64,000 nt of DNA from Deltaproteobacteria bacterium HGW-Deltaproteobacteria-6 (lineage in GTDB: Bacteria; Desulfobacterota; Syntrophia; Syntrophales; Smithellaceae), in assembly GCA_002840435.1 (NCBI GenBank), contig PHAT01000003.1:248001-312000 (forward strand), in the 5' to 3' direction. The notes under the pieces were generated by a model that was not told the DNA's origin, did not search any database, and saw only the letters and a list, made by a program, of their open reading frames with translations. Both the position numbers and the translations under genes were made by a program. Shown piece after piece: positions 26,883 to 36,952 of this stretch (positions are counted from its first letter, which is position 1; every line of letters begins with the position of its first letter).

Positions 26883-29543
26883 ATGATCATTTTAAAAAAG
26901 GCTTTCCTGAGATGCATGATGGCGATCCTGGCTTTGTCGATTGGACTCGTCTTTGCGCCGTTGGTTGCCGCGGGTGATCTGGTCATTTCCCGCGCCACGC
27001 TGGAAGATGCGACCGGCACCCTGACGATCGCCGATGTGGCAGGGCGTGAGTTTACGCCGACCGGACCCACGCTGTCCACGGGCTTCACGCATTCCGTGCA
27101 CTGGCTGCGCCTGCGGGTGAAGGCGCCTGCCAAAGGCAGCGAGGTCGTGCTGTTCATTCGCCAGCCCTGGCTCAACGAAGTCCGTTTGTATGAGGCCGAT
27201 GCAGGCGCTCCGCAGGGGTGGAAAACCCGCGCAACGGGAATCAACCATCCATACAAGGAGCGGGATCGCGCCACAAGTACCCTGGGGTTTGTCGTCCATA
27301 TCACGGGCCCTGAGGCGACCTACTATGTTCGCCTCAATAGCTACCCCCCGTCACAGTTGAGTGTAGCAGCCCTGGAACCGGACGAGGCGGAGCGGCTGGA
27401 CCACCGGGTGGATTTGCTGGCGGTCCTTTTAGTGACCCCCATGCTGTTGCTGCTGCTCTGGGCGCTCCACTGCTATTATCTGGACCGGCTGCCGATCCTG
27501 GGCCTCTTTGCCATTTATCAAGCCGTGTACACCCTTTACGGCATCACCATTTCCGGCTATTTGGCCCCCTTAGTTCCGGCAGCCATTCCTCAACTGACGG
27601 CCTGGATCGGCACTGTCAGCTACTGCGGCGTCAACTTCACCACCGTGCTTTTCTGCCGGGCGTTGTTCAAACCCTATGAGCCGCAGCCTTTACTGATGCG
27701 CGGTCTCAACCTGTTCCTGCTGGCCTTTCCCCTGCAACTGGCGGCAATGGCCCTGGGGTACGCCTCCATTGCCATGATTGCCAACGGCCTGTTGTTCAGG
27801 ATTATCTGGCCGTATTTTGTCATCATGGCCTTTACCCTCCACAGGGAACAGTTGCCGAGCCGGCGTGTGCTGCAAATCTTCTTTGCCGCGATGACGCTGG
27901 TTTTATACCTGTTCTGGATTTTCAGCAGCGGCGGTCAGGCAAGCGCAACCAGCACCATGGGCCGGCAGCTGTTGATCGCCAATGGACTGATCGTCGGCGG
28001 CTTTTTTGCCATGATCTTGAACGCTCGTTCGCGCCGGCTGGTGCTGGAGGCGCAGCAGTCCGCAATCGAGCTTAAGGCCAGATCCGAATTTCTCGCTCTG
28101 GTCAGCCATGAGATCCGGACCCCCCTTAACGCCCTGGTCGGATTCAGCACCCTGGCCCGCCAGGCAACGGACCCCCTGAAACTTGGCCAGTATCACGCCA
28201 TCCTTGAACAATCGTCGCGCTCACTTCTGGATCTGGTCAACAATATCCTGGACATGAGTAAGATTGAGGCAGGGAGGATGGAGATGGAAACCGTGCCGTT
28301 CAACCTGCGACAACTTGTCACGGGTCTGGAAGAGCCGTACAGAACGCTTGCAGGCCAGAAAAATCTGACCTTTGAAATCGTTATCGCGGAAAATGTGCCG
28401 GTCTGGGTTCTCGGGGATCCGGTCCGACTGCGTCAGATTCTCGTCAATCTGTTGTCCAATGCCGTCAAGTTTACCCAAAGCGGTTCGGTCACCTGCACCG
28501 TCTGCTTGTCCGGTCCCGCCGTCGCCGGAAATCCGCTGGTCCGCTTTGAGGTCCGGGATACCGGTATCGGCATTCCGGAAAATAACCGCGCCCAACTCTT
28601 CCAGCCCTTCCGCCAGCTGGATCCGACGATCAGCCGTACCTTCGGCGGCACCGGCCTGGGGCTCGCCATCGTCCGGAGTCTGACGGAATTGATGAAGGGC
28701 AACATCACCTTGGACAGCCGGGAAGGAATCGGCTCCTGCTTCACCATTGAATTGCCGCTTCACGAAACCCAGGCAGCGCCGGATGACCCTGCTCCGGCCA
28801 AGGTCATGGCAATGACTCCCGGATCAATCCTGGTGGTTGAAGACAACACCTATAACCTCCGTCTGCTGGAGGATATCCTGACGGCCTGCGGGCATCAGGT
28901 GACCCTGGCGGAAAGCGGCTTCCAGGCCCTTCAGCTGACGCAACAGCGGCGATTCAGCATGATCCTGATGGACATCCGTATGCCCGGAATCGACGGCATC
29001 GAAGTGGCCCGGCAGATCCGGCTCCGGGAACAGAAATTATCGGAACCGCCCGTACCGATTGTCGCCATCACGGCAGATACCGATGCCGCCACCCGGGAGA
29101 CCTGCCTGAATGCCGGCATCAACGCGGTGCTGACCAAACCGGTCATCCCCGAGCAGTTGGCCAGAGTCATCGCCGCATACGGCGGACCGGCCCTGACCGC
29201 GTCATGCGGAAAGGAACCGCTGCTGAACATGAAGACCTGCGGCGATCTGGGCGACAATCCTGGGCGCGTCCGCCAATACCGCGCGATGCTGCTTGGGGAT
29301 ATTGATGAGGAACTGCTTTGTCTGCAAACCGCCCTGGAATGTGACAATCGCCTGGAGCTTGCCCGGGCTGCCCACACCCTGAAAGGACTGTGCGGATATC
29401 TGGCAAACCGGGAACCGGCCGATCTGGCAGCCTGGCTGCAGCAAAATGCCCGGGCTGCCCGCCCGGAACAGCTGCGGTCGGTGATAAAACATTTACAGAC
29501 CGTCATGAAGGATGCCTCCCCTTCCGACAAGGGAGAGGATTGA
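26883..29543 (+). CDS. 7TM-DISM hybrid histidine kinase with receiver and Hpt domains
   Basis: An 886-residue sensor. In order: signal or first helix (1-30), a periplasmic 7TMR-DISMED2-like beta domain (30-165, with the typical HSVHWLRLRV), about seven membrane helices (178-385), HisKA (SHEIRTPLNAL, His 409), HATPase (NLLSNAVKF, DTGIGIPE, GGTGLGLAIV), a receiver (VVEDN, Asp 697) and an Hpt domain (AAHTLKGLCG, His 831). This is a full phosphorelay in one chain, ready to pass phosphate to a separate regulator. The sigma-54 regulator 66 bases downstream is the obvious recipient. DISM sensors typically bind carbohydrate-like ligands; the ligand here is unknown. Confidence 0.9.
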   Translation: MIILKKAFLRCMMAILALSIGLVFAPLVAAGDLVISRATLEDATGTLTIADVAGREFTPTGPTLSTGFTHSVHWLRLRVKAPAKGSEVVLFIRQPWLNEVRLYEADAGAPQGWKTRATGINHPYKERDRATSTLGFVVHITGPEATYYVRLNSYPPSQLSVAALEPDEAERLDHRVDLLAVLLVTPMLLLLLWALHCYYLDRLPILGLFAIYQAVYTLYGITISGYLAPLVPAAIPQLTAWIGTVSYCGVNFTTVLFCRALFKPYEPQPLLMRGLNLFLLAFPLQLAAMALGYASIAMIANGLLFRIIWPYFVIMAFTLHREQLPSRRVLQIFFAAMTLVLYLFWIFSSGGQASATSTMGRQLLIANGLIVGGFFAMILNARSRRLVLEAQQSAIELKARSEFLALVSHEIRTPLNALVGFSTLARQATDPLKLGQYHAILEQSSRSLLDLVNNILDMSKIEAGRMEMETVPFNLRQLVTGLEEPYRTLAGQKNLTFEIVIAENVPVWVLGDPVRLRQILVNLLSNAVKFTQSGSVTCTVCLSGPAVAGNPLVRFEVRDTGIGIPENNRAQLFQPFRQLDPTISRTFGGTGLGLAIVRSLTELMKGNITLDSREGIGSCFTIELPLHETQAAPDDPAPAKVMAMTPGSILVVEDNTYNLRLLEDILTACGHQVTLAESGFQALQLTQQRRFSMILMDIRMPGIDGIEVARQIRLREQKLSEPPVPIVAITADTDAATRETCLNAGINAVLTKPVIPEQLARVIAAYGGPALTASCGKEPLLNMKTCGDLGDNPGRVRQYRAMLLGDIDEELLCLQTALECDNRLELARAAHTLKGLCGYLANREPADLAAWLQQNARAARPEQLRSVIKHLQTVMKDASPSDKGED

Positions 29544-29609
29544 CGGATCCGGCCTTACAGGATATGGATAAGACATAAGGAACGTTAAGTCACGGGTACA
29601 GGGGATGAT

Positions 29610-30962
<1,353 letters not shown>

Positions 30963-31008
30963 CTCCCATACCCGTGATGGGTGACAGGCAATCCCAGCTT
31001 CTTCCGCA

Positions 31009-31043
31009 TGTCCCATTTCGGACAACCTGTCCAATATCGGACA
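31009..31043. promoter_or_regulatory. Two tandem activator sites (TGTCC-N6-GGACA)
   Basis: TGTCC-CATTTC-GGACA at 31009-31024 and TGTCC-AATATC-GGACA at 31028-31043 are perfect 5-bp inverted repeats. Their centres are 19 bases apart and lie about 62-90 bases before the sigma-54 promoter, a normal enhancer position. They start 47 bases after the response-regulator gene. Confidence 0.75.
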
Positions 31044-31097
31044 CTTCCTTCCCGACATCTTTGATCATTAATTACCGTTATTACTGAAATTTTTGCT

Positions 31098-31114
31098 TTG
31101 GCACGTCCTATGCC
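31098..31114 (+). promoter_or_regulatory. Sigma-54 promoter
   Basis: TTGGCACGTCCTATGCC has GG and GC with exactly 10 bases between, as the -24/-12 class requires. The -24 half is perfect and the -12 half has ATGC instead of TTGC. It is 80 bases upstream of the small Os1348-like gene. Confidence 0.72.
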
Positions 31115-31151
31115 CTTCTATCCGGAACAGCAGGGTTAAATCCGGCACAAA

Positions 31152-31167
31152 TGTCCCGCTGGGGACA
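31152..31167. promoter_or_regulatory. Third TGTCC-N6-GGACA palindrome, downstream of the promoter
   Basis: TGTCC-CGCTGG-GGACA has the same half-sites and spacer as the two upstream sites but sits about 40 bases after the -12 element, in the leader of the small gene. It could allow a loop or feedback repression by the same regulator. Confidence 0.65.
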
Positions 31168-31194
31168 GGACTGTTATGATGATGAGGAAAATTC

Positions 31195-31413
31195 ATGTCG
31201 CAAGATTCCGTCGAGAAATTACTGGGCCGCCTTATTACGGATGACCGTTTCCGGACCGAGGCTGCCGCCTCGTTGGAAAAGCTTTGCCGCCAGGAGGGTT
31301 ATAACCTGACGGAGGGTGAATTGAACATGGTGGTGCGTCTCGACATGCATGCCTTTGAAAACCTCGCCGGAAAACTTGATCCCGGCCTGCGCAGGGCCGG
31401 TCGCACCTTATAA
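31195..31413 (+). CDS. Small Os1348/NHLP-clan-like protein (72 aa)
   Basis: The frame begins MSQDSVEKLLGRLITDDRF, then LTEGELNMVVRLDMHAFENLA and LDPGLRRAG. From memory this follows the Os1348-family pattern (MSQxxVExLLGRLxTDxxFR...LTxxELxALxxLDxxxLExLAxxLDPxLRR), a clan related to nitrile-hydratase-like leader peptides of RiPP systems. No double-Gly cleavage site or Cys-rich core follows, and no modification enzyme is nearby, so it is probably not itself a RiPP precursor. GAGG lies 7 bases before the ATG. It is first in the sigma-54-controlled unit, 89 bases before the YadA-like gene. Confidence 0.68.
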   Translation: MSQDSVEKLLGRLITDDRFRTEAAASLEKLCRQEGYNLTEGELNMVVRLDMHAFENLAGKLDPGLRRAGRTL

Positions 31414-31502: not shown

Positions 31503-32732
31503 ATGATAAAAAAGAAAGTGATTCATAATGCGGCGGCTGCGGTTTTGGCGATGATTATGTTGGCGGGACCGTTTATGGCAACCCCCGCATTGGCTAATTC
31601 CACGACATACGGCAATAACGGCCAGGTTATCGTCGTCGATGCGGGGACCGACGCCGCCAGCCTCACCGCAGGGAGTGTTTCAATAAGCGGCGCCACTACT
31701 GCCATCACCGGCATCACCAGCATTAATGGCGGCGCTAACACCAACGCAACCAGCATCAATGCCGGCACGAGTTCAGGTGCGGTCACCATCGGCAATTCAA
31801 CGATCGGCACAACCAACACCGTCACGGCCATCAGCGGCAACAGCACACTGTCCATCGCCAATACCCAGGCCAGTCTGAAGGCTGGCGCGGTTTTAGGCAC
31901 CAATGGCACCACCGGCACGACGTCCGGCGCCAACTCCGGTGGAATGACGGTGTACAACACCGCACAAACCATTGGCGCTAACACAACCATCCAGACAGCC
32001 TTGTCGCCGACCGGTATTTTGAATGGAAAAACCTACCAGAACAAAGTAAATGGCAACTTGTTCGTGGACGGCAATGTCTACATTAACGGCACGTTGGACT
32101 ATGTATCCAGCAACTCGGCCAATACAACCGTTGTCGGGGCGACGGGCACCAGCAACCTGAGCAGCGCGCAAGGGACCACCGCCGGCACCGCCATTGTGAT
32201 GAAGGGCTCTGCCGGAACCCAGACAGTCGTCGATGCCAACGGTAAGCTGTCCAATATCGTGACGGCAGGCGCCGCCCAGTCCACCGCAGCACTGACCCTC
32301 ACCAACGGCGACGGCAACACCCATGGTATCGTGGTGACGGAAACTCAAACGACCATGTCGGGCGGACGAAATTCCACCTCAATGACTCTGCACGACGACG
32401 GCGCCACATTCGCGAACAGTACGAATGGCCAGCCGGTGCGGGTGCATGGAGTTGATGACGGCACGGCCCCATATGACGCCGTCAATGTTCGCCAACTGAG
32501 CGCAGGCCTGGCCATGGTAGCCGGTTTGGCCGCACTGCCCCAGGTGGACGCAGGCAAAAAATTCGCCATCGGCATCGGCACCGGTGGTTATATGTCAACG
32601 GTTTCCCTGGCCGGCGGCTTGAGCGCCCGCATCCGGGACAACTTTCTGGTCAAAGCCGGTGCAGCCTTTGTTCCTGACTATAGCGGCAATTCACACACTG
32701 TCTGGAACGCCGGCCTCCAATATTCCTTCTAG
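31503..32732 (+). CDS. YadA-like trimeric autotransporter / surface protein
   Basis: A 409-residue protein. It has a signal peptide (about 1-31, ending PALA), then a long low-complexity Ser/Thr/Asn/Gly/Ala passenger (35-315) full of SING, NAGTS and GNST turns typical of beta-helical heads. The C-terminal 95 residues form the anchor: VNVRQLSAGLAMVAGLAALP, then GKKFAIGIGTGGYMSTVSLA and the final GLQYSF, the membrane barrel of trimeric adhesins. The passenger is short and lacks classical stalk repeats. AGGGGAT lies before the ATG. It is downstream of the Os1348-like gene and ends at a strong terminator. Attachment or cell contact is the likely role. Confidence 0.83.
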   Translation: MIKKKVIHNAAAAVLAMIMLAGPFMATPALANSTTYGNNGQVIVVDAGTDAASLTAGSVSISGATTAITGITSINGGANTNATSINAGTSSGAVTIGNSTIGTTNTVTAISGNSTLSIANTQASLKAGAVLGTNGTTGTTSGANSGGMTVYNTAQTIGANTTIQTALSPTGILNGKTYQNKVNGNLFVDGNVYINGTLDYVSSNSANTTVVGATGTSNLSSAQGTTAGTAIVMKGSAGTQTVVDANGKLSNIVTAGAAQSTAALTLTNGDGNTHGIVVTETQTTMSGGRNSTSMTLHDDGATFANSTNGQPVRVHGVDDGTAPYDAVNVRQLSAGLAMVAGLAALPQVDAGKKFAIGIGTGGYMSTVSLAGGLSARIRDNFLVKAGAAFVPDYSGNSHTVWNAGLQYSF

Positions 32733-33184: not shown

Positions 33185-33616
33185 TTATTTAAACAATTTA
33201 AAAAAATACCCCCGGCCGCTTTTATGTTTTTTTAAAAATCTTAAAAGCTGTTCTTTTCCGTTGTCCTTAATATCGATAAATTCGACGCCCACCCGATAGA
33301 TGGATTCCGGGATATCACTGGATATGTCGTACCAGCGGGCTTCTCCGGTTGCTTCAAACAGCTGTTCATGCTCGATGAGTTCCATGCTCATGTATAAACG
33401 GTTCTTCCGTGCAAAAGGGTGTCCTGCCAGCAAATTGATGCCGGCAATCTCGATAGACTTCGTCTCGAGACAGATGCCGCCTTTCGAAATATTCCGGCTT
33501 TTAACATGGAGTGGCGGCGGACCCTCCGGCGCTCCCAAAACCGGTACGATCCCAATGGCAACGTCCAGAGGGCATTCAAGGCGCTGAAATTTTCTTTTTT
33601 CCAAGCCATCGCTCAT
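33185..33616 (-). CDS. PilZ-domain protein (single domain)
   Basis: A 143-residue protein, essentially one PilZ domain: KRKFQRLECP supplies RxxxR near residue 8 and SRNISKGGICLE supplies NxSxxG near 42. The remainder is the beta barrel and a basic C-terminal helix. It is expected to bind c-di-GMP and act on a partner. AGGAG lies 6 bases before the ATG. It is downstream, in the same direction, of the ZraSR-like pair but separated by 108 bases. Confidence 0.83.
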   Translation of the reverse strand: MSDGLEKRKFQRLECPLDVAIGIVPVLGAPEGPPPLHVKSRNISKGGICLETKSIEIAGINLLAGHPFARKNRLYMSMELIEHEQLFEATGEARWYDISSDIPESIYRVGVEFIDIKDNGKEQLLRFLKKHKSGRGYFFKLFK

Positions 33617-33724
33617 GGTCGACTCCTATAGAAAATTCAGGAAATACAACATTAAATTACTTTGTAATTGTATCCATTTACTGGCAAGTACGTAAGGATC
33701 CTTATTATTTTTGCCATTAAATTA

Positions 33725-35107
33725 TCATTTAGTTTCATACTTTTCCAGCTTCTTGCGCAATGTTTTGCGGGTAATGCCCAGGCGTCGCGCCGCTTCGCTT
33801 TTGTTGCCGCTGCAGTCGTTAAGCGCCTCCAGGATGCTTCTTTTTTCAACCTCTTCCAGCGGCAGGTTGCCGGAAGTCCCTGCCGATCGGTCGCAGACGC
33901 CGCTTTGAACCCTGCCGTTTGGATCTCCGTCATCCGCCATCAAAAGGGTTAACTCGTCTTCGTCCAGATAGGTATTTCGCGACAGCACCACAGCCCGTTC
34001 GATGGCATTCATCAGTTCCCGGACGTTGCCCGGCCATGGATATTGCACAAGCTTTGCCAGGGCCCGCGGCGTGAAGTTTTTCACGTTTTTGGAATTCTTC
34101 TCGGCAAATACCCGCAGAAAATGCTGTGCCAGAAGCGGAATGTCTTCCTTCCGGTCCCGAAGCGACGGCACATTTAAAGCCACCACATTGAGCCGGTAGA
34201 ACAAATCTTCACGAAAGCGCCCCTGCTGTATTTCTTTTTTCAGATCTTTATTGGAGGCGGCAATCACGCGGACATCGACTTTGAGCACTTCCTGCCCGCC
34301 CACGCGCGTCAGCTCCCGTTCCTGTATAACCCGCAAAAGTTTAACCTGCATCGCGGGTGACATCTCGCTTACCTCGTCCAGAAAAATGCTGCCGCCGTCG
34401 GCCTGCAGAAACTTCCCTTCCCGTTTGCGGTCCGCGCCGGTGAACGCGCCTTTTTCATGCCCGAACAATTCCGATTCCAGCAGCGTCTCGGTAAGCGCTG
34501 CGCAGTTGATCTTCACAAAAGGCTCGTTCTTGCGGTTGCTGTTGGCATGAATGGCGTTGGCGATCACTTCCTTGCCGGTCCCCGATTCCCCGGTAATTAA
34601 AACCGTCGCCTGCGTCGGGGCCACCTGTTCCACAATTTCCAAAAGTTTAATCATGGAAGGACTCCGGCCGATCATGTTTTGCCGGTCAAATTTTTCACCC
34701 AGTCTTTCCTTGAGATATTCATTTTCTTTTTTCAGCAAACTATGCTCGGTCGCCCGTTTCATCACGATTTGCAGTTCATCAAAATCCAGCGGCTTGGTCA
34801 GATAATCGTAAGCGCCTTTTTTCAGCGCGCTGACCGCAGTCTCCACGGACGCGTAAGCCGTCATGATAATTACCGGAATGGCGGGACTGATTTTTTTTAT
34901 TTGATCCAGCGCCTCAATACCCGAAACTTTCATCATGCGGATATCCATCAGGATCAGATCAAAAGACCGTCTGCGGACTTCGTCAATGGCGACGGAGCCG
35001 TCATCCGCGCAGGCCACATGATAGCCCCAGCCGCCCAGCAGTTTTTTCAGCATGACGCGGTGGGCCGGATCGTCATCCACAATTAAAATTTCCAGTCCTT
35101 TTTTCAT
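33725..35107 (-). CDS. Sigma-54-dependent response regulator (ZraR/NtrC type)
   Basis: A 460-residue activator: receiver (Asp 55), AAA+ domain with GESGTGKE (173-180), GAFTGA loop (220-225) and IFLDEVSEMSP, then a complete Fis HTH (GNKSEAARRLGITRKTLRKKLEKY). Its start overlaps the kinase stop by 4 bases. The divergent sigma-54 promoter at 36953 and the ZraP/Spy-like protein behind it reproduce the zraP-zraSR layout of enterobacteria, so zinc or envelope stress is the likely theme. I do not assign zraR because specificity cannot be read. Confidence 0.9.
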   Translation of the reverse strand: MKKGLEILIVDDDPAHRVMLKKLLGGWGYHVACADDGSVAIDEVRRRSFDLILMDIRMMKVSGIEALDQIKKISPAIPVIIMTAYASVETAVSALKKGAYDYLTKPLDFDELQIVMKRATEHSLLKKENEYLKERLGEKFDRQNMIGRSPSMIKLLEIVEQVAPTQATVLITGESGTGKEVIANAIHANSNRKNEPFVKINCAALTETLLESELFGHEKGAFTGADRKREGKFLQADGGSIFLDEVSEMSPAMQVKLLRVIQERELTRVGGQEVLKVDVRVIAASNKDLKKEIQQGRFREDLFYRLNVVALNVPSLRDRKEDIPLLAQHFLRVFAEKNSKNVKNFTPRALAKLVQYPWPGNVRELMNAIERAVVLSRNTYLDEDELTLLMADDGDPNGRVQSGVCDRSAGTSGNLPLEEVEKRSILEALNDCSGNKSEAARRLGITRKTLRKKLEKYETK

Positions 35108-36804
35108 TTTTTCATCCCCTCCTTGGCCGATAAAGGAAAGCGCAGCATGACTTTTGTGCCGACTCCCGCTTTGCTCTCCATTTGAATCAGGCCGCCGTGC
35201 GCGTCCATAATTTTTTGCACAACCGCCAGCCCAAGTCCCGTGCCCGCCGGTTTGGACGTAAAATACGGATCGTAAATCCGCGGCAGGTCCTCTTCTTTGA
35301 TGCCTGAACCGGTATCGGAAACCGTCACGTCCATCAAATCTTTTTGCGCCGACAGCTCCACTGATAGTCTGCCGCCTGCCGGCATGGCCGACAAGGCATT
35401 GAGAAAGATATTGAGCAGCACCTGCTTTACCCTGTCCGGATCAATATCCGCCTGCGGCAAGGTTTCGCCGGCTTTAATGTCAATCTCGACCGCATTCTTC
35501 CGGGCTTCAGTCTCAACCAGCCTGACCGTATGCCGCACGAGCTCCGCCAGGTTCGCCGGTTCTCTTTTTAAGGCGAGCGGCCGGGCAAATTCAATGAGCT
35601 GACTGATGACCCGGTTCAGTCTTTCGGTTTCGGCAATCATAATGTCCGCCGTCTCTTCGTCTTCTTTATTGCCGGAAAGCCTTTGTTTGAAATAAACCGC
35701 AAAGCCTTTGATAGAACTGAGCGGATTACGGATTTCATGCGCCACGCCCGCCGCGAGCGATCCGATGGCGTTCAAGTGCCGGCTGCGGGCGACTTCCTGC
35801 TCCAGTTGCCTGATCATTGTCACGTTGCGGGCCAGCAGGATTTTCCCCTCCTGAACATCATCGTCGGCAAAGGCCGCCGCTACAACTTCCCACATCCGGT
35901 CACCGTCTTTTTCCGATGAAAGAACGATGTCCTCTTCCATAAGGCCGGTTTGTTCATTAATTCCGCCCAGCACCCTGGAAAATGCCGCAGGCAGCAAATG
36001 CCCCGCTTCTTTTCCTAACGCGTCGGAACAGGAAACGGTGAGAAACCCGCTTGCCTGCTCATTGCAGGCAATAATTCTGCCGGTCTTGTCCACCGCCAGA
36101 AGTCCAATGGGCATGTGTTTCACCAACGCTTCTGAAAAAACGGTCATGCGTGAGAGTGAAGAACGCGCCAGACGATACGCCTGCACCAGGAAAAGCGACA
36201 CAATAGCCAGCGACCCGATCAGAATTAAAATCAGCGCCCTCGTTACCGTCCGAACCGTATCTTCGCGCGATGCCTTTTCGATTTTCCCCATGTGAAAACC
36301 GACGAAAACAATCGCTGGACGGCGCTCTCCTTTTCCACCGTTTCCCTGCCCGGGGGAAAATCCCCGGTAAACCTCAAAAGTATCGGCCCCCTCGGGATTG
36401 GCCGTCTGCCGCCAGCGAATTTCCAGGTTCCCGGCGATCTTTTTCATATCCAGATCCAACCCGTAAGATCTTCCCAGCATGGAAGGATCGCTGTCGGCCA
36501 GAATCTGTCCCTTGCTGTCCGTCACAATCATATAATCAATATCCGGCTGCTGCGCGGTTTCCATGAGCAATTTCTGAAGAAAAAACATATCCTCATCCCG
36601 GTCCAAACGGTCGGTAAGCCCTGCCTCAAAGGACCGGATCAGCGTCGCGCCTTTTTCGACAAAAAGCGTTACCGCCTGATTTTTTCCCTGCTGGAACTGC
36701 ATGAAAATCATCAGACTCAGAATGACGGCTAAAACAGCAATCGCGCTGATCGCCACCCAGACGGAGATGTCAAAACGGAACTTTTTCTTAGCCTTATCTG
36801 CCAT
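35104..36804 (-). CDS. Sensor histidine kinase (ZraS-like)
   Basis: About 566 residues: helix 1 (about 15-35), a periplasmic sensor of roughly 150 residues (DIDYMIVTDSKGQILADSDPS looks like a Cache/PDC fold), helix 2 (about 190-212), a PAS domain (AVDKTGRIIACNEQASGFL), HisKA with AHEIRNPLSSIK (His about 356) and HATPase (DTGSGIKEEDL, GTGLGLAVV). It makes a kinase-regulator pair with the gene it overlaps. I prefer the ATG at 36804 because GGAG lies 8 bases upstream; an ATG five codons earlier has no site. Divergent from the ZraP-like gene. Confidence 0.88.
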   Translation of the reverse strand: MADKAKKKFRFDISVWVAISAIAVLAVILSLMIFMQFQQGKNQAVTLFVEKGATLIRSFEAGLTDRLDRDEDMFFLQKLLMETAQQPDIDYMIVTDSKGQILADSDPSMLGRSYGLDLDMKKIAGNLEIRWRQTANPEGADTFEVYRGFSPGQGNGGKGERRPAIVFVGFHMGKIEKASREDTVRTVTRALILILIGSLAIVSLFLVQAYRLARSSLSRMTVFSEALVKHMPIGLLAVDKTGRIIACNEQASGFLTVSCSDALGKEAGHLLPAAFSRVLGGINEQTGLMEEDIVLSSEKDGDRMWEVVAAAFADDDVQEGKILLARNVTMIRQLEQEVARSRHLNAIGSLAAGVAHEIRNPLSSIKGFAVYFKQRLSGNKEDEETADIMIAETERLNRVISQLIEFARPLALKREPANLAELVRHTVRLVETEARKNAVEIDIKAGETLPQADIDPDRVKQVLLNIFLNALSAMPAGGRLSVELSAQKDLMDVTVSDTGSGIKEEDLPRIYDPYFTSKPAGTGLGLAVVQKIMDAHGGLIQMESKAGVGTKVMLRFPLSAKEGMKK

Positions 36805-36952
36805 GTTTTTTCGCTCCATTCATAAATTGGTTACATTCTGACCATCTGGATACATCAAATGGATATATATTATCCACGCAACGTGTGTAAAACGCAAACA
36901 ATATTTCCTTTGCATGGCAACTATTATATTAATTACATATACTTACATACAA

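Follow-up and report, generated by a model that had tools for sequence, protein, structure and literature searches.

Three exact copies of the palindrome TGTCC-N6-GGACA flank a single −24/−12 (sigma-54) promoter in the 64-kb stretch of DNA analyzed here (the window), two of them upstream and one downstream. This three-site observation is correct and lies far above chance. The recurrence of the layout in dozens of related regions suggests an activator that grips its promoter from both sides.

Three palindromes around one promoter

The distal upstream palindrome (site 1) spans 31009..31024 and the proximal one (site 2) 31028..31043, 19 bp from site 1. The downstream palindrome (site 3) spans 31152..31167, in the expected 5′ untranslated region, and its position is conserved in related loci. 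A preliminary description of this DNA had reported three palindromes of the same architecture, the first two 19 bp apart, and a pattern search of the window returned exactly these copies (listed without strand). The promoter, TTTGGCACGTCCTATGCCC, lies on the plus strand at 31097..31115, with its GG at 31100-31101 and its GC at 31112-31113. It had been called a sigma-54 type promoter, and it is indeed a good match to the −24/−12 consensus; it is also kept in the orthologous locus from the same order. Site 3 begins 53 bp past the TGGC of the promoter, that is, downstream. Judged from the promoter position, transcription would start at about 31125, which would place the centers of sites 1, 2, and 3 at about −108, −89, and +35.

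Sites 1–3 are the only exact copies in the window. Copies with up to two mismatches number 25 versus 23.2 expected, and degenerate copies in the window therefore carry no meaning. That chance-level frequency would suit a reading of the three sites as chance palindromes or as sites of an unrelated protein, which the shuffle controls, the conserved geometry, and the co-occurrence with the regulator described below make hardly credible. The whole genome (4,086,018 bases in 53 contigs) contains seven exact copies and one copy of a reversed control pattern, for about 3.9 exact copies expected by chance (our own estimate, 4.09e6/4^10). The other four copies are at background level: L001 and L006 look intragenic by eye, L002 forms the stem of a terminator-like hairpin, and L007 looks intergenic, with no strict −24/−12 site within 300 bp of L002 or L007. 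Sites 1–3 are therefore a local cluster. The genome-wide search near −24/−12 promoters proposed in the preliminary description thus returned only background outside this cluster; in this genome, the exact motif is the mark of one promoter and not of a wide regulon.

The adjacent gene (29610..30962, plus strand) encodes an NtrC-type response regulator of 450 aa, recognized by its residues and by Pfam models PF00072, PF00158, and PF25601. The aspartate predicted to be phosphorylated in its receiver domain (PF00072), D55, and the GAFTGA motif of its AAA+ domain (PF00158) are both invariant in the four aligned rows. A putative short C-terminal helix-turn-helix (HTH) closes the protein with RKIFY, the HTH-like end NKSAAARLLKTTRKIFY being followed directly by the stop codon. 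The Fis-type HTH model PF02954 gave no match in this regulator at E ≤ 0.001 and gave one in the paralog at 33725. Most regulators of the family terminate directly past the recognition helix, either with RKxFY or with RKxFYR plus one or two residues, and are shorter than this paralog (33725-35107, same window). On the plus strand, a hybrid histidine kinase (26883..29543) with a 7TMR-DISM sensor, HisKA, HATPase, receiver, and Hpt domains, assigned by Pfam, is the probable partner of the regulator; the kinase-regulator order is the same in the orthologous locus L040. The minus strand encodes another pair of kinase and NtrC-type regulator at 33185-36819, adjoined by a PilZ protein.

Beyond site 3, the plus strand encodes a small protein of 72 aa (31195..31413) belonging to the Os1348 family of the NHLP clan, with 55.6 bits for PF14407 (cut-off 48) and 61.5 bits for NF038399 (cut-off 40). 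No convincing solved structural relative was found by sequence (best E value 0.19). A crystal structure of Os1348 itself is mentioned in passages of PMC7726476. The next gene on the same strand (31503..32732, PF03895) encodes a YadA-anchored surface protein of the trimeric autotransporter type, probably a further product of the same transcript.

Distribution of the locus

The small protein was found in 2 of 149 relatives, namely the window's own genome and G144, which belongs to another family of the same order and whose regulator and small protein are 91% and 79% identical to those of the window. The relaxed pattern of the upstream pair is likewise present in these two genomes only, among 159 relatives. 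Compared with the window, the G144 spacer keeps site 1 and the promoter, has one mismatch in site 2, and retains intact half-sites around a different center in site 3. The kinase, regulator, and small protein of the window (26883-31413) are similar to their counterparts in a genome from another family of the order. In the genomes searched from the window's own family and genus, by contrast, the top regulator hit shares 49% identity, and no copy of the small protein was found.

At the level of the phylum, a PF14407 search gave matches in 12 of 395 genomes, two of them above the cut-off. In one matching genome, G485, palindromes precede three small-protein genes. With up to one mismatch, the site pair was found in three of the 395 genomes, once in the window's genome, once in G393, and seven times in G485, and the reversed control pair in none of the 395. 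G393 was located by the DNA pattern alone, and an orthologous regulator, 67% identical to that of the window, is encoded just upstream. With a profile built from four regulators, the same three genomes are the only ones among the 395 above 900 bits, followed by two matches at 549 and 564 bits and the next at 436; these bit scores, not the identities, are inflated because these three genomes supplied three of the four profile rows. Among the 395 genomes, a close regulator ortholog is confined to the three having the site pair.

Scanning genome contigs with the end of the regulator yielded two loci. L040 is most likely on the same contig as L009, the G144 locus, and L041 was rejected as a chance match within a short fragment of an unrelated protein. 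Because its patterns missed the helix itself, the scan is poor evidence of absence. A search of plasmids with the 29610 regulator at E ≤ 1e-100 gave no match. Judging from sequence comparisons, the segment 26883-31413 probably results from horizontal transfer.

G485 carries six promoters with the exact pair (L067-L070). A 3′ fragment of the regulator gene stands alone before three of these, the whole gene before one, and none before two. The promoter seems to have been copied along with the end of the regulator, in front of different genes. In L071 (G393) and in L068 and L069 (G485), the regulatory region is intact but only a short initial stretch of the small protein remains, for example MSQEG-stop. 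Elsewhere in G485 (C1:677181, L080), a single exact palindrome lies just 5′ of another MSQQAVEQ small-protein start; a strict −24/−12 site was not found within 300 bp of it, and it is perhaps a decayed promoter copy.

Such regulators are encoded at E ≤ 1e-145 in 40 of the 76 genomes of G393's family (54 genes). These 54 regulators, with the window, L040, and G485, make up the 57 loci compared below.

Spacing, recognition helix, and geometry

We counted exact TGTCC-Nx-GGACA within 300 bp past the regulator stop codon in 51 of the 57 loci, the six others having been parsed later. Spacing N6 gave 42 sites in 17 loci, N7 19 sites in 10 loci, and N8 two sites in one locus; none was found in these 51 loci at spacings 0–5 or 9–20. 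The mean over 200 shuffles of this 51-locus set was 0.015 sites for N6 and 0.02 for N7. More distant members of the family show TGT[A/T]C-N7-G[A/T]ACA. Across many related loci, the half-sites are kept and the centers are free, in line with the earlier remark that these look like protein-binding sites.

A spacing could be assigned with up to one mismatch in 39 of the 57 loci: 17 N6, 19 N7, two N8, and a single N5 that is probably a chance match. The residue preceding xRK in the recognition helix is A or T in all 17 N6 loci and V or I in all 22 other labeled loci; it does not separate N7 from N8. An eighteenth A-type locus, L112, has no sites. Two loci that branch separately within the N6 clade have changed to spacing N7 and carry V or I: L118, in which all three sites are N7, and L135, in which the N7 sites are degenerate. 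On the regulator tree, a quick one built without the DNA-binding domain and with long branches flagged, spacing and helix residue go together in 2 of 2 independent pairs on supported branches and in 3 on all branches, too few for significance.

Upstream and downstream sites are usually alike in spacing. Since they are, and since the spacing tracks the recognition helix, it is very probable that the adjacent response regulator recognizes all three palindromes. The 29610 regulator had been singled out for binding assays from the outset, and the co-variation of site presence and spacing with its ortholog and recognition helix supports it as the likely binder. L147 may represent an intermediate between the classes, as it combines spacing 7 at site 2 with spacing 8 at site 3 in one promoter.

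A strict −24/−12 promoter is present in 42 of the 57 loci. The downstream palindrome, searched 16–80 bp past the start of TGGC with scoring and threshold set after the sites were known, accompanies it in 40 loci (shuffled rate 4.8% per locus), including L085, where the match (at 31) is in the wrong place and the true copy (at 51) is degenerate. It was not found in the two other loci with the promoter, L088 and L128. The cluster, whose conservation in orthologous spacers had been proposed as a check, is conserved at related promoters; with the motif at background frequency elsewhere in the window's genome, the two refuting checks proposed at the start gave a divided result. Counted from TGGC, site 3 starts at 40–43 in 13 loci, at 50–53 in 26, and at 44–49 in none. 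These near and far classes differ by about 10 bp, roughly one helical turn, a phasing that rests on few events because the classes need only two changes on the tree. The interval between sites 1 and 2 is 19 or 20 bp in 41 of the 42 cases measured (searched over 18–21 only), and site 2 starts at −67 to −72 from TGGC in 42 of 45. Among the 15 loci lacking a strict promoter, five still have sites (L134, L135, L139, L146, and L159), L153 has degenerate upstream sites only, and no sites were found in nine (L112, L129, L137, L140, L141, L143, L144, L155, and L156).

These distances bear on another reading, in which site 3 works at the RNA level, as a hairpin in the 5′ untranslated region. A 6-bp hairpin can form in the window and L009, and a longer one in L086. 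Folding is no better than in shuffled sequences for the window (z −1.0) and L009 (z −1.2), but L086 reaches z −2.6; the stretch folded for L108 missed most of site 3. The promoter sets the position of site 3, at two values about 10 bp apart, and the distance to the start codon is scattered (31–45 in most loci). Moreover, its spacing and half-sites change mostly together with those of the upstream DNA sites. A hairpin is therefore very improbable, and this reading was set aside after folding. Because site 3 mostly follows the upstream changes in half-site and spacing and keeps one of two distances from the promoter, we regard it as a probable DNA site of the same protein.

Preservation was compared in 47 promoters, the 42 strict-promoter loci and five further G485 copies. 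The core is perfect (8 of 8) in 23 promoters at site 1, 37 at site 2, and 40 at site 3 (24, 37, and 40 when counted by hand after correction of the misfitted L114 and L147); site 1 was searched over fewer positions, and the ranges favor sites 2 and 3. No site stands out among the 22 N6 promoters, where 19, 19, and 20 promoters match at 10 of 10 positions for sites 1, 2, and 3. Among the 25 non-N6 promoters, perfect cores number 4, 17, and 20, a deficit confined to site 1 (p 0.001 and 0.004). Overall, site 3 is as well preserved as site 2, and it is better than both upstream sites in L134, L138, and L148.

Site 3 might instead be an operator at which the regulator blocks polymerase, as a roadblock or shut-off, with sites 1 and 2 serving activation. 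Its position, about +25 or +35, is just beyond the expected end of the open complex. There is also a precedent, the related regulator FlbD being described in passages of PMC3930126 as both activating and repressing through ftr sites. A concentration-gated operator would be expected to be the poorest copy, which the counts above contradict, yet conservation alone is compatible with repression, and we consider the operator unlikely but worth keeping in mind. The negative feedback suggested in the preliminary description is conceivable but unsupported: the promoter lies 3′ of the regulator gene and is oriented away from it, and site 3 is no less conserved than site 2. It is because of this equal preservation that we prefer a role of site 3 in activation.

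Many promoters also contain a box resembling the IHF consensus, YAANNNNYTGATW. The best match, with up to two mismatches, lies at −30 to −32 from TGGC in 34 of the 47 promoters. Anywhere in the 52 bp, a match with up to one mismatch is found in 19 of 47 promoters versus 7.6% of shuffles, and one with up to two mismatches in 41 of 47 but also in 49% of shuffles. With shuffled sequences reaching the looser score about half of the time, it is the constancy of the position that carries weight. Neither the window nor L040 contains a convincing box. This box is relevant to an activation mode in which the downstream dimer, close to the polymerase, would be the main activator without looping, the upstream sites being auxiliary. 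The few loci in which site 3 surpasses both upstream sites and the FleQ precedent (PMC6120874, in part) speak for it. However, the preservation of site 2 matches that of site 3 and its distance is almost constant, which, together with the fixed IHF-like box, suggests looping from upstream, so that we judge activation mainly by the downstream dimer to be improbable.

Proposed mechanism and known systems

From the observed sites, their geometry, conservation, and co-variation with the regulator, we infer that the regulator binds there, that a hexamer spans the promoter, and that site 3 aids activation. Our preferred mechanism, to which we lean somewhat, is that the palindromes are sites for dimers of the adjacent regulator and that two upstream dimers and one downstream dimer form one active hexamer that loops the promoter. 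Two dimers would sit side by side at about −108 and −89, and a third just past the start, at about +35, on a fixed helix face relative to the promoter. Upon phosphorylation, the three dimers would most likely join as one AAA+ hexamer holding the promoter in a closed loop; in many relatives, the bend would be aided by the IHF-like box lying between site 2 and the promoter. The hexamer would then activate the sigma-54 polymerase, and the small NHLP-type protein and the surface protein would be expressed. More tentatively, these loci may define an activator family whose enhancer obligatorily straddles the promoter, one hexamer looping the sigma-54 polymerase and the site spacing moving with the helix residue. 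The details of that generalization (a helical face fixed for the two upstream dimers and the single downstream dimer, spacing steps of 1 bp, and an unusually short recognition helix) are put forward just as tentatively.

In the N6 clade, the next gene seems in most cases to encode an exported protein (ten proteins scanned, signals called by hydrophobicity and by eye). Besides the YadA-anchored protein of the window, these include DUF3089 lipoproteins, a collagen-repeat protein, and a sensor-domain protein with a signal peptide. TAT-like signals are seen by eye, and the Pfam TAT model matched one of the ten, below its cut-off. The next gene encodes a flagellin-like protein with RCC1 repeats in L114 and what looks like a cytoplasmic signaling protein in L120; in the N7 group, many next genes look by eye like signaling genes. 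Control of the cell exterior would fit the view of sigma-54 expressed in the title of PMC3162934.

The linked change of spacing and recognition helix provides a natural series for the co-evolution of a dimeric activator and its sites. Textbooks describe sigma-54 activators as enhancer proteins that bind upstream, and downstream sites count as oddities. In the loci compared above, the downstream site is part of a rigid layout that recurs many times, and its role is therefore testable with a small set of promoter mutants.

FleQ of Pseudomonas aeruginosa, an activator of the NtrC family, resembles the present case in that its enhancer sites at flhA, fliE, and fliL lie downstream of the RpoN site. 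FleQ is not known to be phosphorylated. It is reported to use downstream enhancer sites (Jyot 2002). The sequence of the window has the same trait, a candidate activator site downstream of the RpoN site. The preliminary description had called such a site unusual for NtrC-type activators, which is partly right but overlooks FleQ. For flhA, fliE, and fliL, passages of PMC6120874 suggest downstream binding near the polymerase without looping; they name near binding and looping as two separate modes and report that no consistent consensus was obtained. By contrast, the putative sites described here are strict palindromes that flank one promoter at fixed distances in a whole regulator family.

Three putative activator sites per promoter, known here from sequence only, recall NorR at norVW of E. 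coli, where three essential enhancer sites are described as a scaffold for a higher-order oligomer (PMC2941729, in part). Our three-dimer proposal draws on this precedent of three sites assembling one hexamer by analogy. All three NorR sites are upstream, whereas one of ours is downstream. The NtrC-type response regulators of Desulfovibrio vulgaris are of the same class as the 29610 regulator, and their sites are described as mostly palindromic, with 4- to 6-bp inverted repeats 3–8 bp apart; the passages available of that work give no fixed downstream site or helix-tied spacing rule (PMC3333781). TGTCC and GGACA are absent from the main text of PMC4641369.

FlbD of Caulobacter, with its ftr sites, and FlrC of Vibrio are likewise sigma-54 activators. 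FlrC sites lie downstream of the transcription start. Both proteins control flagellar regulons, and the pair-plus-one layout does not appear in the passages on them (for FlbD, PMC3930126). A literature search with the motif as text, reaching neither figures, supplements, nor most subscription papers, gave no match. Downstream enhancers are already known from FleQ, and the fixed two-sided layout looks like a new variant.
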